Assembly: GCF_019008365.1 (NCBI RefSeq)
Contig: NZ_JAHHUL010000008.1
Coordinates: 62,001-126,000 of the forward strand
Reading direction: 5' to 3'
Length of the DNA: 64,000 nt
From: Phosphitispora fastidiosa
Lineage (GTDB): Bacteria; Bacillota; Thermincolia; Thermincolales; UBA2595
Notes under the pieces: generated by a model
Told to the model about the DNA's origin: nothing
Databases searched by the model: none
Seen by the model: the letters and a program-made list of their open reading frames with translations, nothing else
Program-made: the position numbers and the translations under genes
Part shown: positions 27,883-37,306 of the stretch, piece after piece
Position numbering within the stretch: the first letter of the stretch is position 1
Layout of the letters: each line of letters begins with the position of its first letter

Positions 27883-28122
27883 TTAAATCCCTCCCACCAA
27901 TTTGCTAACGGTCATTTCCAGAACCAACCATTGCAGTAAAGTTAATTATTTGACGTTATTCACCCTATATTTGTTTCACCAAATCCTTCCGGCCGTTCAA
28001 ATAAGAGAGCGGCCCTAATTTTATGTAAATTCTTGCTGTGATATTATTTGAGTTACCTTCTGTTTTGGGTTTGCATAAATTATATATGTAAAGTAAAAAT
28101 AGATTGTTTCAGAGGTGTAATT

Positions 28123-29457
28123 ATGTCATATCACGATGTTTTACTGATTAACCCGCCGTCAAGGCAAAGAGAGTTTTATGAACATCTTGGCTTAGGTTAT
28201 CTGGCAGCCTGTCTCAGAAAACAGAATGTTGATGTTAAAATTCTGAATATGCCTCATTGGATGGCTCCCCGGGCCTTACAGGAAGTTAAAAAGTATTCCT
28301 GCAAACTGGTTGGGGTCAGTATTCCATTCCAGAGGAGCGCACGACAGGCCTTTAGTTTTATTTCCCGCCTCAAAAGGGAGGGCTTTGAGGCGGCACATGT
28401 GGCGGTAGGTGGTATCTACCCATCCTTTGCTTATGAAGAGATTCTGGATCAATTTCCCGCTGTGGATTCGGTTGTTATCGGTGAAGGTGAAGAAACCATA
28501 GTAGAGCTGGCAGAAGCCATAATCAGGAACAGTGACTGGAAGAAAATAAGAGGGATAGCATTCCGTGGGCAGGAAAACATTGTGACAACAGAGTTACGCC
28601 CCCTCATTGAGGATCTGGATACCGTGCCATTTCCGGAACGTGATACCCTTCCGGAAGTATTGGAGAAACTGGAACATGCGCCGGTGCTTTCTTCTAGAGG
28701 CTGCTATGGCAGGTGCACTTTTTGCAGTGTGGTGCCTTTCTTTAAAAAATTCGGCACAACACTGAGGATGCGCAGCAGCGCCAACGTCATTGAGGAGTTG
28801 GAATTCCTGTATCACAATTACGGGGTTCGAAATGTGGATTTTAATGATGCCAATTTTATTGGCGGGAAGGGACGTGGCTTTCGCCGGGCCCGGGAGATAG
28901 CGGAACTAATCCTGAGCAAAAACATGGATTTGAAGTTCGGAATCCAGTGCAGGCCAAATGAAATCGACCTGGAACTGTTCAGCATTTTAAAAAGAGCGGG
29001 TCTCAGTAAAGTGTTCGTGGGAATAGAATCAGGTTCCCAGGCAATGCTGGAACGGTTTCAGAAGGACATTACAGTTGAAGAAAACCTGAAGGCCCTGGAA
29101 ACTCTGGGTAAACTGGATCTAATCACATATATGGGATTCATAACCTTTGATGATAGATCAACTATGCAGGAATACAGAGAAAACATTGCCTTCATTCAAA
29201 AAGCTAAAAAGCTGATTCCGCAAAACGCGCTTTTTTATGACCTGGGAACCAAACTTCTCCCCCTGGCCGGCACAGACGCCGAAAAAAACATGAAGAATAG
29301 AGGAATCTTGATTGGGAATTCCCTCAAATTTGATTATAAAATGGATGACCCCAAACTGAATTTATTTTATGGCGCTATAAAGGTTAAAGAGGACATTTCC
29401 AGGATCGGGAGAAGGCTGGGAGAAGCTGATAAGGAATGGACTAAAGAAAAGCCTTAA
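28123..29457 (+). CDS. B12-binding-type radical SAM protein
   Basis: This 444-residue class-B-like radical SAM protein has an N-terminal Rossmann-like B12-binding-type domain (DVLLINPPSRQREFYEHLGLGYLAA), GGIYPSFAYEE, VVIGEGEETI, and then C194-x3-C198-x2-C201 (RGCYGRCTFCS). IESGSQAMLERFQKDITVEEN follows in the barrel. The ATG at 28123 follows AGAGGTG. It is distinct from the four radical SAM genes at 57-64 kb. It is followed by a methyltransferase gene. The substrate is unknown. Confidence 0.85.
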   Translation: MSYHDVLLINPPSRQREFYEHLGLGYLAACLRKQNVDVKILNMPHWMAPRALQEVKKYSCKLVGVSIPFQRSARQAFSFISRLKREGFEAAHVAVGGIYPSFAYEEILDQFPAVDSVVIGEGEETIVELAEAIIRNSDWKKIRGIAFRGQENIVTTELRPLIEDLDTVPFPERDTLPEVLEKLEHAPVLSSRGCYGRCTFCSVVPFFKKFGTTLRMRSSANVIEELEFLYHNYGVRNVDFNDANFIGGKGRGFRRAREIAELILSKNMDLKFGIQCRPNEIDLELFSILKRAGLSKVFVGIESGSQAMLERFQKDITVEENLKALETLGKLDLITYMGFITFDDRSTMQEYRENIAFIQKAKKLIPQNALFYDLGTKLLPLAGTDAEKNMKNRGILIGNSLKFDYKMDDPKLNLFYGAIKVKEDISRIGRRLGEADKEWTKEKP

Positions 29458-29565
29458 ATCATTTAGGTGGAGATGTAAAAAAAAAAATGTTTCAGAATAA
29501 GGGGCATTTCAGCTCCTTTTTCGTATTATGGGAGAAAAAGATAGTTATTTGGAAGGGAGATCCGT

Positions 29566-30300
29566 ATGGAAAAAGACGCCGTATCAATACTTTGCAGCCC
29601 TGAGACCGGGGCAGGACTGCAACTGGTCTCGGAGGAGGTTCCAGGGAGGAGGGGGCGGGAGGCGCTGGTGGACAGCGGGACAGGCAAGAAGTTTGTGGTA
29701 CGCGAGGGTATCCCCCTTTTATTAAAAGATGATCAGATTACCGGAGAAGGCAAAAAGACCCGCGCCTTTTACAATGTAATAGCCCCGCTTTACAATGTGC
29801 TTCATGAACTACAGGGCCGTAGAAAAGGGGGCGAAAGGAAACTGCGTCAAAAGATCCTCAGTCCCCTGGAGATAGGTGAGGGCAACAAAGTCCTGGAGGT
29901 TTCAGTGGGCACAGGCAGTAACCTACCATACCTTCCGCCAAATGCCAATTACTATGGGGTGGACATTTCATTCCCAATGCTCAGGCAGTGCGCTAAGCTG
30001 CTGAAAAGACACGGAATTTCAGGCAATTTGGTTTTAGGAGCAGCCGAATACCTGCCCTTTAAGGACAATGTATTTGATTGCGTGTTTAATGTATGTGGCT
30101 TCAGACTTTTTAATGACAAATCAAGGGCTATGGGAGAAATGGTCAGGGTGGCTAAACCTGGAGCGAGAATCCTCATTGCAGACCAGAAAAGGAGTGGTGT
30201 TCCCCTGGATCTGATACCCCGCTCGGCATCCCCGGCAAATGTTTCTGAGATAGAGGAATGGGAGTTATATTGCATGGTGTTCAGGAAAAAGCACTTGTAA
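29566..30300 (+). CDS. Class I SAM-dependent methyltransferase with Trm112-like N-terminus
   Basis: This 244-residue protein has an N-terminal segment of about 60 residues like a Trm112/zinc-ribbon-derived domain (SILCSPETGAGLQL...FVVREGIPLLL), without obvious zinc cysteines. A Methyltransf_11-type domain follows with VLEVSVGTGSN, NYYGVDIS, EYLPFKDNVFDCVFNVCGF and KPGARILIADQ. It could act with the upstream radical SAM protein. The ATG follows GGGAG. Specificity is not visible. Confidence 0.8.
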   Translation: MEKDAVSILCSPETGAGLQLVSEEVPGRRGREALVDSGTGKKFVVREGIPLLLKDDQITGEGKKTRAFYNVIAPLYNVLHELQGRRKGGERKLRQKILSPLEIGEGNKVLEVSVGTGSNLPYLPPNANYYGVDISFPMLRQCAKLLKRHGISGNLVLGAAEYLPFKDNVFDCVFNVCGFRLFNDKSRAMGEMVRVAKPGARILIADQKRSGVPLDLIPRSASPANVSEIEEWELYCMVFRKKHL

Positions 30301-30404
30301 AATACTTGAAATGTAACCTTTCGTAAAACCTTAACATAATATTTAGTGAAGAACTGAAACAACTTAGCCCAAATTTATTAAATTCTTTGAAGGAGGGTAA
30401 TCAA

Positions 30405-30503
30405 ATGTCTGTTAATACCCAGGAATTTGGATGGACCGCACCGTTTTTTCTTTTCCTGATCCTGATCCTTCTGTGGGCAGGGGTAGACGGTGGTTGCTGG
30501 TAA
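30405..30503 (+). CDS. Hydrophobic micropeptide, array copy 1 (32 aa)
   Basis: This 32-codon gene has a strong ribosome site (AAGGAGGG). The peptide has a polar N-terminus (MSVNTQEFGWTAPF), a hydrophobic core FFLFLILILLW and the end GVDGGCW. It is nearly identical in DNA to the next copy across the core, showing recent duplication. It could be a membrane-inserted peptide, similar in scale to YjcZ-type sporulation peptides; no family is assigned. Confidence 0.75.
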   Translation: MSVNTQEFGWTAPFFLFLILILLWAGVDGGCW

Positions 30504-30557
30504 AATTACCAAAAAAACACATTTGTGAACATATCAAGCAGAAAGGAGGGTATTTAG

Positions 30558-30659
30558 ATGGCTGATGTGAAATCTCAACAATGGGGATGGACCGCACCGT
30601 TTTTTCTTTTCCTGATCCTGATTCTTCTGTGGGCAGGGGTGGATGGTGGTTTCTGGTAA
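30558..30659 (+). CDS. Hydrophobic micropeptide, array copy 2 (33 aa)
   Basis: This 33-codon gene has AAGGAGGG upstream. It encodes MADVKSQQWGWTAPF, the core FFLFLILILLW and the end GVDGGFW. It is the closest relative of copy 1 in DNA and of copy 4 in protein. It lies 54 bp after copy 1, so the two may share a transcript. Confidence 0.75.
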   Translation: MADVKSQQWGWTAPFFLFLILILLWAGVDGGFW

Positions 30660-30708
30660 AAACTGCTTAATTTAATAGGCAGGCTGAGGAACACTCTCAA
30701 GATATGCT

Positions 30709-30730
30709 CATAGTATAGTAGCAAAGGTCG
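30709..30730 (+). promoter_or_regulatory. Shared leader with sigma-E/K-like -10, copy 3
   Basis: CATAGTATA matches the CATAnnnTA pattern of sporulation sigma-K -10 elements. The sequence continues GTAGCAAAGGTCGG and recurs upstream of copy 4 at 30978. An AC pair lies about 16 bp upstream, where the loose -35 would be. This is inference from a short motif. Confidence 0.35.
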
Positions 30731-30767
30731 GTAATTAAAATAATTATTTAGCAAAGGGGGACGTAAA

Positions 30768-30866
30768 ATGGCAGACGGAATCTTTGGCGGAGGCGCTACA
30801 TTTCCATTTTTCCTGTTTTTGATTCTGATACTCCTGTGGGGAGGAGTAGATGGCGGTTTCTGGTAA
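30768..30866 (+). CDS. Hydrophobic micropeptide, array copy 3 (32 aa)
   Basis: This 32-codon gene encodes MADGIFGGGATFPF, the core FFLFLILILLW and the end GVDGGFW. The N-terminus differs from copies 1, 2 and 4 (Gly-rich instead of the SQQW type) while the hydrophobic half is kept, so the core is what selection preserves. The ribosome site is AAAGGGGG. Confidence 0.75.
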   Translation: MADGIFGGGATFPFFLFLILILLWGGVDGGFW

Positions 30867-30904
30867 AATTACCGCCTGTTAAACTGATATATTTTATATC
30901 CCAG

Positions 30905-30940
30905 TGATCAGGCCCGCTTATTGTTAAGCGGGCCTGATCA
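30905..30940 (+). terminator. Perfect hairpin after micropeptide copy 3
   Basis: A perfect 16-bp inverted repeat (30905-30920/30925-30940) with a 4-base loop lies 38 bp after the stop codon. There is little T-run downstream. It separates copies 1-3 from copy 4. Confidence 0.65.
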
Positions 30941-30977
30941 TGAATGTGCAGTCGATGAACCTTTTAAGAAATTTAAA

Positions 30978-30998
30978 CATAGTATGTAGCAAAGGTCG
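30978..30998 (+). promoter_or_regulatory. Shared leader upstream of micropeptide copy 4
   Basis: CATAGTATG followed by TAGCAAAGGTCG repeats the leader found at 30709-30730. Its conservation between two paralogues, apart from the genes themselves, suggests a promoter or regulatory site. Confidence 0.35.
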
Positions 30999-31041
30999 AT
31001 AGGGTATCAATTTAAGATTATTCCTGAAAGGAGGCAAAGGA

Positions 31042-31143
31042 ATGGCTGATTTAAAATCCCAGCAGTGGGGGGCAACCGCACCGTTTTTTCTCTTCCTGAT
31101 CCTCATTCTCCTGTGGGCAGGAGTAGATGGCGGTTTTTGGTAG
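31042..31143 (+). CDS. Hydrophobic micropeptide, array copy 4 (33 aa)
   Basis: This 33-codon gene encodes MADLKSQQWGATAPF, the core FFLFLILILLW and the end GVDGGFW, with TAG as stop. Its DNA differs from copy 2 mainly at third codon positions, which indicates selection on the peptide. The ribosome site is AAAGGAGG. Confidence 0.75.
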   Translation: MADLKSQQWGATAPFFLFLILILLWAGVDGGFW

Positions 31144-31204
31144 AAACGGATCATTAAAGTAATATCGATATCAAGCATGTCATAGGCTAAACCGGTTATT
31201 AAAG

Positions 31205-31223
31205 CCCCGGAGCCATTCCGGGG
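31205..31223 (+). terminator. Short GC hairpin between micropeptide copies 4 and 5
   Basis: CCCCGG and CCGGGG pair around a 7-base loop and are followed by TTTACAATTCTT. It is a plausible weak terminator after copy 4. Confidence 0.5.
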
Positions 31224-31254
31224 TTTACAATTCTTACGAAGGAGGTGAATGTTA

Positions 31255-31350
31255 ATGGCTGACGGGTGTGGAATAGGCGGCAATAATTTCCCGATTTTCC
31301 TTTTCCTGATTCTGATTCTTTTATGGTCAGGAGTTGATGGCTGCTGGTAA
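31255..31350 (+). CDS. Hydrophobic micropeptide, array copy 5 (31 aa)
   Basis: This 31-codon gene encodes MADGCGIGGNNFPIF, the core FLFLILILLW and the end GVDGCW. It is the most diverged copy, with two cysteines, one in each polar flank; copy 1 has a single Cys near its end. It has a strong ribosome site (AAGGAGGTG). Confidence 0.75.
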   Translation: MADGCGIGGNNFPIFLFLILILLWSGVDGCW

Positions 31351-31360
31351 TAACCTTTTT

Positions 31361-31386
31361 TATCCGCTTCCTTAGTGAGGCGGATA
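31361..31386 (+). terminator. Terminator after the micropeptide array
   Basis: TATCCGC and GCGGATA pair around a 12-base loop, with TTTGTTTG following. It closes the array on its 3' side. The stretch 31387-31475 shows no gene. Confidence 0.55.
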
Positions 31387-31529: not shown

Positions 31530-31913
31530 TTAATTAAGGATTCCGCCAGAACCCTGAAGATTAGCATTGGCGCCAAAGCCGCCCCTGAAGCCTGCTCCGC
31601 CACCGCAGCCGCCGCCGGCACCATAAGCGCCGCAGCCGCCGCCACCGTTTCTAAAACCGGCTCCCGGCAGGATGTCGTTTTCCTGGCGGTATTGTTCAGC
31701 CTGGTCCATCCTGTCTTTAATGGCTTGACCCTGGTCAGCGGTGATCTCTCCTGATTCCACATACTTGTCAACCAACTGCTTCCTCAATTCGACCATCTGC
31801 TTTTGCAGGTCAAGAACGTCCTGCTTTTGGGTATCCGTAAGGGCTGCAAAAGCCGGTACAGCAAAAGCCAGGACTAAAACAACGGTTAAGGCAATAAGAA
31901 GTTTATTTTTCAT
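31530..31913 (-). CDS. Secreted DUF2680-like protein
   Basis: This 127-residue exported protein has a signal peptide (KNKLLIALTVVLVLAFAVPAFA), then a helical region (LTDTQKQDVLDLQKQMVELRKQLVDKYVESGEI is its first part) and a Gly/Cys-rich tail (GGGGCGAYGAGGGCGGG). The helical part resembles the DUF2680/YckD family. The ATG at 31913 is chosen because AAGGAGGTG lies nine bases upstream; an in-frame GTG overlaps that site. The role is unknown. Confidence 0.75.
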   Translation of the reverse strand: MKNKLLIALTVVLVLAFAVPAFAALTDTQKQDVLDLQKQMVELRKQLVDKYVESGEITADQGQAIKDRMDQAEQYRQENDILPGAGFRNGGGGCGAYGAGGGCGGGAGFRGGFGANANLQGSGGILN

Positions 31914-32112
31914 GTTTGTTGTCACCTCCTTTTCAGCTAATACGAGACCGGATAAACTTTATGTTTCTTATATATTAAGTATAGCCAAATGTTGTGTGCA
32001 AAATGGGTTGAAATTGTTAAGAAATTGTGAATAATTGTTTCCATTACCTGCCGGAAGGTAATGATGCAGTAATTGTAGAAATAGTAGAAAAACCGCCGGA
32101 AGGAGGTAATTT

Positions 32113-36351: not shown

Positions 36352-37134
36352 TCAGGATGCGAAATTTACAGCAAACACATCAGTTGTGATTACATCTCCT
36401 GCTCGTAGCTGCTCCCTGATGCTGCCTACTCTGCGGTCGACTTCCAGAAGGTTCTGGGCAGCCATGACTTCAACTTCATTTTGATGAAGAACCTTTTTTA
36501 CGGCTCCGTTTTCGATTATGATCCGCATCTTGGTGAGAAGTGCAATCACGGGGTCGTGAGTTACGAAAACAATAATTTTCCCGGTGCCTTTAATTATGTC
36601 GATAACCTCCTGCTTGAAGATGCCGGCATTTTCGATTTCATCCAGGAGAATAATAGGAGCTGCCCCAATCATAATTGCATCTGCAATCAGGAGGGATCTT
36701 GTCTGCCCTCCCGATAAAATAGTTACCTTGTGATCCTTATGGATTTTTTCACCCGTAAAACTATTAGCTAACTTAATAGTTTCCGCAATTACGCCGATAT
36801 CATTAATACCACGGGCGCGGGCATGAATTTCCAGGAAATCTTCAGTGGTAAGGTCTGCGAAGCATTTGGTATTCTGGGTAATCATAGCAATTGGCTTAAG
36901 CGAGGGGTTATATCTGATGTCATCTGTTGGGTTACTTCCATTAACCAAGATAGTTCGGCCTGTGGAGGTATCCCCTTGGGCCAGCAACTCAATATCAGTA
37001 ATAAAAGCGGTTTTCCCGCTTCCGGTGGGGCCGACAATAGATACGGTTTCTCCTGCCCTTAGTGTAATTTCAGCGAAGTTTTCCCTGACATCAAGTTTGT
37101 CTGTGCCGGGAAGAATTGTGATTTCACTGAGCAT
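36352..37134 (-). CDS. Stand-alone ABC-type ATPase
   Basis: This 260-residue ABC domain has Walker A GPTGSGKT, signature ILSGGQTRSLLIADA, Walker B IILLDEIENAG and H-loop VTHD. No membrane partner lies nearby. In the D-loop region the usual TSGLD-type sequence is replaced by ENAGI. With a G3E GTPase and an Fe-S protein as operon partners, it may be a soluble energy-coupling ATPase for metallocofactor assembly or enzyme activation. The start ATG follows AGAGGAGA. Confidence 0.75.
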   Translation of the reverse strand: MLSEITILPGTDKLDVRENFAEITLRAGETVSIVGPTGSGKTAFITDIELLAQGDTSTGRTILVNGSNPTDDIRYNPSLKPIAMITQNTKCFADLTTEDFLEIHARARGINDIGVIAETIKLANSFTGEKIHKDHKVTILSGGQTRSLLIADAIMIGAAPIILLDEIENAGIFKQEVIDIIKGTGKIIVFVTHDPVIALLTKMRIIIENGAVKKVLHQNEVEVMAAQNLLEVDRRVGSIREQLRAGDVITTDVFAVNFAS

Positions 37135-37306
37135 AAGTTCTCTCCTCTCAACAATTTATTTCCTGCAGTCTAAACTATGAATTATGTATTCGAAAGGTTA
37201 CTTTAAATGGCAGTTAATTTGAAGCTGCTTAGAAAAGATGGGTGGGGTTTCCTGGGGAAGTGGCATGAAAATACATTCTAATCCGGGAGCTCCCGAATAG
37301 AACGGT

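Follow-up and report, generated by a model that had tools for sequence, protein, structure and literature searches.

SscA, a relative of YjcZ and YhzE, has a role in the assembly of the spore coat. SpoVM is a tiny coat anchor peptide of 26 residues that is made in the mother cell under sigma-E and forms an amphipathic helix. The YjcZ/SscA (YhzE) proteins of the Bacilli, represented by PF09680 (YjcZ_2), are about 26-45 residues long, some longer, and combine a glycine/aromatic N-terminus with one conserved hydrophobic core that ends near a glycine; they occur in multiple copies per genome and carry no other domain. In B. subtilis, yjcZ belongs to the sigma-K regulon (PMC517825). The tiny proteins of the B. 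subtilis YhzE family have been included among putative type I toxins that are unconfirmed (PMC6562991); toxins of this class are usually shorter than 60 residues with one transmembrane segment (PMC6563280). For most spore-formers other than Bacillus and a small number of Clostridia, the spore coat has hardly been described.

Here, we describe an array of five micropeptide genes in the window, the whole stretch of 64,000 nucleotides of DNA that was analysed, from a thermophilic, spore-forming Thermincola. The explanation that we favour, with a probability of roughly 0.7, is that the genes belong to a sigma-K-dependent family expressed late in the mother cell, whose single-helix peptides would be part of the spore envelope and work like YjcZ/SscA. 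The sigma-K-type promoters and the distribution of the family across the phylum go beyond the preliminary description of the locus, which was concerned with the genes and their products.

Comparison with Known Small Spore Proteins

The array peptides share with YjcZ/SscA the small size, the glycine/aromatic N-terminus, the single hydrophobic core ending near glycine, the multiple copies per genome, and the absence of any other domain. The core itself differs, being LFLILILL-x-x-G[DV] here and LIVVLFILLIIVGA in YjcZ/SscA. Membership of PF09680 (gathering cut-off 21 bits) is not supported, as neither the array peptides nor eight relatives gave a match at E 10, and the whole genome contains none. 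Cross-profile scores with PF09680 averaged 9.2 and 6.0, compared with 6.2 and 4.4 for class-preserving shuffles; most of the scores lie within the range of the shuffles, and hhalign gave a probability of 29% for the two families. They occur together in no sampled genome, which is not significant with only six PF09680 genomes. The likeness to YjcZ/SscA would be one of function, with homology no more than putative. Compared with SpoVM, the array peptides are also tiny, but their predicted helix is fully hydrophobic and their promoters are of the sigma-K type.

The Array and Its Genes

Five tandem open reading frames (ORFs) of 31-33 codons lie at 30405-31350 of the window, as follows:

30405-30503, forward strand: micropeptide copy 1, 32 residues, MSVNTQEFGWTAPFFLFLILILLWAGVDGGCW
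30558-30659, forward strand: micropeptide copy 2, 33 residues, MADVKSQQWGWTAPFFLFLILILLWAGVDGGFW
30768-30866, forward strand: micropeptide copy 3, 32 residues, MADGIFGGGATFPFFLFLILILLWGGVDGGFW
31042-31143, forward strand: micropeptide copy 4, 33 residues, MADLKSQQWGATAPFFLFLILILLWAGVDGGFW
31255-31350, forward strand: micropeptide copy 5, 31 residues, MADGCGIGGNNFPIFLFLILILLWSGVDGCW

Each ORF is preceded at 5-10 nt by a Shine-Dalgarno sequence (AAGGAGG, AAGGGGG or a near variant), and 18 alignment columns are invariant among the five peptides, including FLFLILILLW and GVDG...W, which bears out the five small genes with strong ribosome sites and a conserved core reported in the preliminary description. 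An alternative ATG for copy 5 at 31249 is possible, but sits too near its Shine-Dalgarno sequence. No further copies were found in the genome at the thresholds used. A scan of genome contigs gave matches in two Thermincola relatives only, where an array of seven copies occupies the same place in each; one copy, in L034, is broken by Ns. In one Thermincola genome only, a 56-residue variant with an FLLFLILILL core within a longer protein adjoins the array (L035, 9629-9799).

Between copies 2 and 4 there are 13 synonymous changes and 3 that are non-synonymous (dN/dS about 0.04, NG86), so that the differences are indeed mostly silent, as had been claimed. The selection on the peptide that was read from them extends to the orthologues, where ten comparisons among three Thermincola genomes, including that of the window, gave 75 synonymous and 30 non-synonymous changes. 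The pooled pN/pS is 0.12; the Fisher P of 2.5e-29, which takes sites as independent and pools non-independent pairs, is indicative only because the comparisons share the window copies, although the ratio is unaffected. Within the 15-codon core FLFLILILLWxGVDG, 2 non-synonymous stand against 39 synonymous changes (pN/pS 0.02). Given the likeness of all five copies, the retention of the array in two relatives, and the low pN/pS, the array is more than a chance run of short frames: the five ORFs are real genes under purifying selection.

Promoters and Transcription Units

The intergenic regions of the array contain the following candidate elements:

30316..30343, forward strand: sigma-K-type promoter P1, ACC..N..CATAATATT, serving copies 1 and 2, kept in both Thermincola relatives
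30691..30717, forward strand: sigma-K-type promoter P3, ACACTCT..N..CATAGTATA, preceding copy 3
30905..30940, no strand assigned: perfect 16-bp hairpin 3' of copy 3, with no clear T-run
30959..30986, forward strand: sigma-K-type promoter P4, ACCTTTT..N..CATAGTATG, preceding copy 4, kept in both relatives
31181..31189, forward strand: weak -10-like CATAGGCTA 5' of copy 5, with no matching -35 and not conserved in the relatives
31361..31386, forward strand: terminator-like hairpin 3' of copy 5, closing the array

The motif AC[AC]-N-CATANNNT, with 16-17 nt from AC to CATA, stands about 60-70 nt 5' of the start codons of copies 1, 3, and 4 and, in the form AC-N16/17-CATANNNT, is kept before their orthologues. 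The -10 elements of sigma-E and sigma-K are identical in B. subtilis, and a C instead of a T in the -35 marks sigma-K (PMC517825); the array promoters have C at this position. These features indicate that the promoters of copies 1, 3, and 4 are of the sigma-K type. Copy 2 starts 54 nt after copy 1, has no promoter of its own, and is probably co-transcribed with it, while copy 5 may be read from P4 because only the weak -10-like site precedes it. This layout of transcription units is the one that we infer from the sequence; the lack of a convincing promoter for copies 2 and 5 themselves counts against the favoured explanation.

The same motif accompanies the family elsewhere. In a first set of loci it precedes 39 of 73 family genes; 200 shuffles gave 1.0 on average and never more than 5, and permuted -10 sequences gave no more than 2. 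The 17-nt spacing is preferred and the AC of the -35 stands out. A further 40 loci, fetched later and mostly from other genera, include a few genes of the first set and have the motif before 30 of 52 genes. Combined, 65 of 121 unique family genes, from many genera, carry the motif, against 17 of 237 long ORFs of the same and adjoining stretches (P 2e-22), and several of these 17 are themselves spore-coat-type genes. Across the genome of the window, enrichment of the strict 17-nt motif is only about two-fold (12 sites versus 5 for a reversed control), which weighs against the favoured explanation. Strict sites precede the genes of two LysM proteins and Gin/CsfB (L131, L133, L134). B. subtilis uses sigma-K to switch csfB on in the mother cell, through AACACCGA/CATATACT (PMC4383634). 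A sigma-K-like site that is kept in both relatives also stands about 65 nt 5' of an ABC-transporter ATPase-like gene of the window (36352-37199, reverse strand).

Neighbouring Genes

Motif-bearing genes near family members encode SipL+LysM, YkwD-spore, SodC, and Hsp20 proteins and a BMQ_0737-like coat protein (below cut-off), and in two other genomes the gene of a SipL+LysM morphogenetic protein is found at a distance of about 2.5 kb from the micropeptide array. A coat regulon would be expected to contain genes of these types. Regulation of membrane proteins is the role of many known bacterial micropeptides, and the array peptides could likewise be small subunits or regulators, made at the time of sporulation, of a complex in the mother-cell or forespore membrane instead of structural coat components. 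Their single predicted helix suits such a role, and sigma-K timing alone is no proof of coat location. We consider this unlikely, as multicopy arrays with variable ends suit a structural function better, no partner gene is constant across loci among the neighbours tested, and coat-type genes are found among the motif-bearing neighbours.

Upstream of the array lies a pair of enzyme genes, the first of which has a promoter-like site of its own:

28055..28081, forward strand: sigma-K-type promoter-like site 5' of the B12/radical-SAM gene 28123-29457, kept in three Thermincola genomes including that of the window

Because the site is kept in all three genomes, the B12/radical-SAM gene may encode a sporulation-time enzyme and is a possible co-regulated neighbour of the array. 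The second gene, at 29566-30300, encodes a UbiE-like methyltransferase and is directly upstream of the array. Another UbiE-like methyltransferase gene (L137, 6516-7238; 52% identity) is also directly upstream of a micropeptide array, in the only genome sampled from a different family of the same order.

The arrangement raises the question of whether the peptides are precursors of ribosomally made, modified products (RiPPs) that the adjoining B12/radical-SAM enzyme and methyltransferase (28123-30300) would modify. The order of the genes, the sub-cut-off matches of the radical-SAM protein, which include RiPP C-methyltransferases, and the sigma-K-like site kept within the genus all speak for it. 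The conserved part of the peptides, though, is the hydrophobic core instead of a leader, and the ends differ among copies. None of 20 loci from other genera has the radical-SAM gene, which was found within the genus only, and one of the 20 has the methyltransferase (52% identity); in L035 a beta-propeller gene separates the two enzymes. A link to a RiPP maturase was rejected, since no maturase is constant beside family genes across genera, and we regard this origin of the peptides as very improbable. Convergent to the array, a gene on the reverse strand (31530-31925) encodes a DUF2680 protein with a Gly/Cys-rich tail and a weak, sub-cut-off match to GrrA-type radical-SAM-modified RiPPs.

The Wider Family

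A profile built from 16 members was searched against 299 Bacillota genomes at E 0.001 or better, and 71 of them, from across the phylum, contain matches, often several per genome, singly or arrayed. The family set was sampled from the top-scoring matches. What its members have in common is a core, [AP]F-x-LFLILILL-x-x-G, about 14 residues long, with end sequences and lengths that vary; FLILIL and the next G are invariant when 22 diverse members are aligned. Members score a mean of 53 bits against their own profile and 10 for shuffles that keep the hydrophobic positions, a test that compares order with composition only because the profile was built from the same members. The conservation of the family is one of sequence itself, beyond hydrophobicity alone. 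Pfam and NCBIfam scans of the window peptides and 22 relatives returned no meaningful family match, and a text search of the literature for the core motif found nothing relevant. A match of two relatives to PF11395 (coronavirus NS7B) was attributed to chance resemblance between hydrophobic helices. Judged by the shared core, the micropeptides belong to a widespread family for which no Pfam or NCBIfam model was found. Two loci (L011, 2572-2754; L054, from about 2797) encode Gly/Pro-rich proteins of 60-69 residues that end in the FLFLILILL core and have their own sigma-K-type site.

The family is nearly restricted to genomes with spore genes. SpoIVA is present in 69 of the 71 family-bearing genomes and in 180 of the 228 others (Fisher P 9e-5, kinship uncorrected), an association that is modest because most sampled genomes carry SpoIVA; the two exceptions are incomplete bins of 61-75% completeness. 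The genome of the window encodes SpoIVA, and SigK above the curated cut-off. T. ferriacetica has been described as spore-forming (PMC4582578), and in T. carboxydiphila spore formation was not observed (PMC3533761).

These results also bear on a reading of the array as type I toxins, in which each gene would encode a small hydrophobic membrane toxin kept silent by its own antisense RNA. Size, hydrophobicity, and the tandem multicopy arrangement are compatible with it, and type I toxins such as TxpA, BsrG, C. difficile CD2517.1, and others are likewise small, hydrophobic, and previously unannotated. Unlike them, the array peptides have promoters of the sigma-K type, not the sigma-A type, a spore-linked distribution, and no antisense signal that could be found: a consensus scan of both strands gave 2 sigma-70-like sites versus 3.5 in shuffles, and an Rfam antitoxin match is absent. 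The peptides have no charged C-terminus. The family accompanies spore genes and gave no match in a phage collection (one tblastn with a short hydrophobic query and low-complexity filtering on) or in a plasmid search. A toxin array is, on this evidence, improbable.

A Model for the Function of the Peptides

AlphaFold2 models the window peptides as a single helix over residues 4-29, at moderate confidence (pLDDT 75, pTM 0.36). According to the spore-envelope explanation, after engulfment the mother-cell sigma-K RNA polymerase would transcribe at least three units, with P1 serving copies 1-2, P3 copy 3, and P4 copy 4 and perhaps copy 5. Each product of 31-33 residues would fold as one hydrophobic helix (about residues 4-29), with a short polar/Gly/aromatic N-terminus that varies among copies and with GVDG and an aromatic residue at the C-terminus. 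The peptides would insert in the spore envelope, in the outer forespore membrane and/or the coat, where the near-invariant core could pack helix to helix into a hydrophobic structural or scaffold layer, leaving the variable ends exposed. Several copies would provide both a greater dose and varied exposed ends. We infer the expression, location, self-assembly, and coat role of the peptides in this way; on the opposite side, the mother-cell membrane could accommodate the core just as well, and not all sigma-K genes are coat genes. The earlier suggestion of membrane-type peptides of the spore or cell membrane agrees with the predicted helix and the selection on the peptide, and its choice of two sites is narrowed, in that the sigma-K-type promoters, the co-occurrence with SpoIVA, and the coat-gene neighbours favour the spore.

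Implications

As a broader and more tentative proposal, which we think possible but doubtful, the FLILIL family, phylum-wide and driven by sigma-K, may assemble by itself into a specific hydrophobic layer within the spore envelope of spore-formers outside the Bacilli, as an independent counterpart of YjcZ/SscA, whose core would be reused at the C-terminus of the longer Gly/Pro-rich proteins (L011, L054). With members in about a quarter of the sampled Bacillota genomes and no Pfam or NCBIfam model, the family may point to a genuine annotation gap, and it yields a shortlist of candidate spore-specific peptides. The promoter pattern is usable for finding sigma-K genes in uncultured spore-formers. 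The family is also relevant to the question of how tiny hydrophobic proteins like the YhzE group act, as toxins or as parts of the spore.
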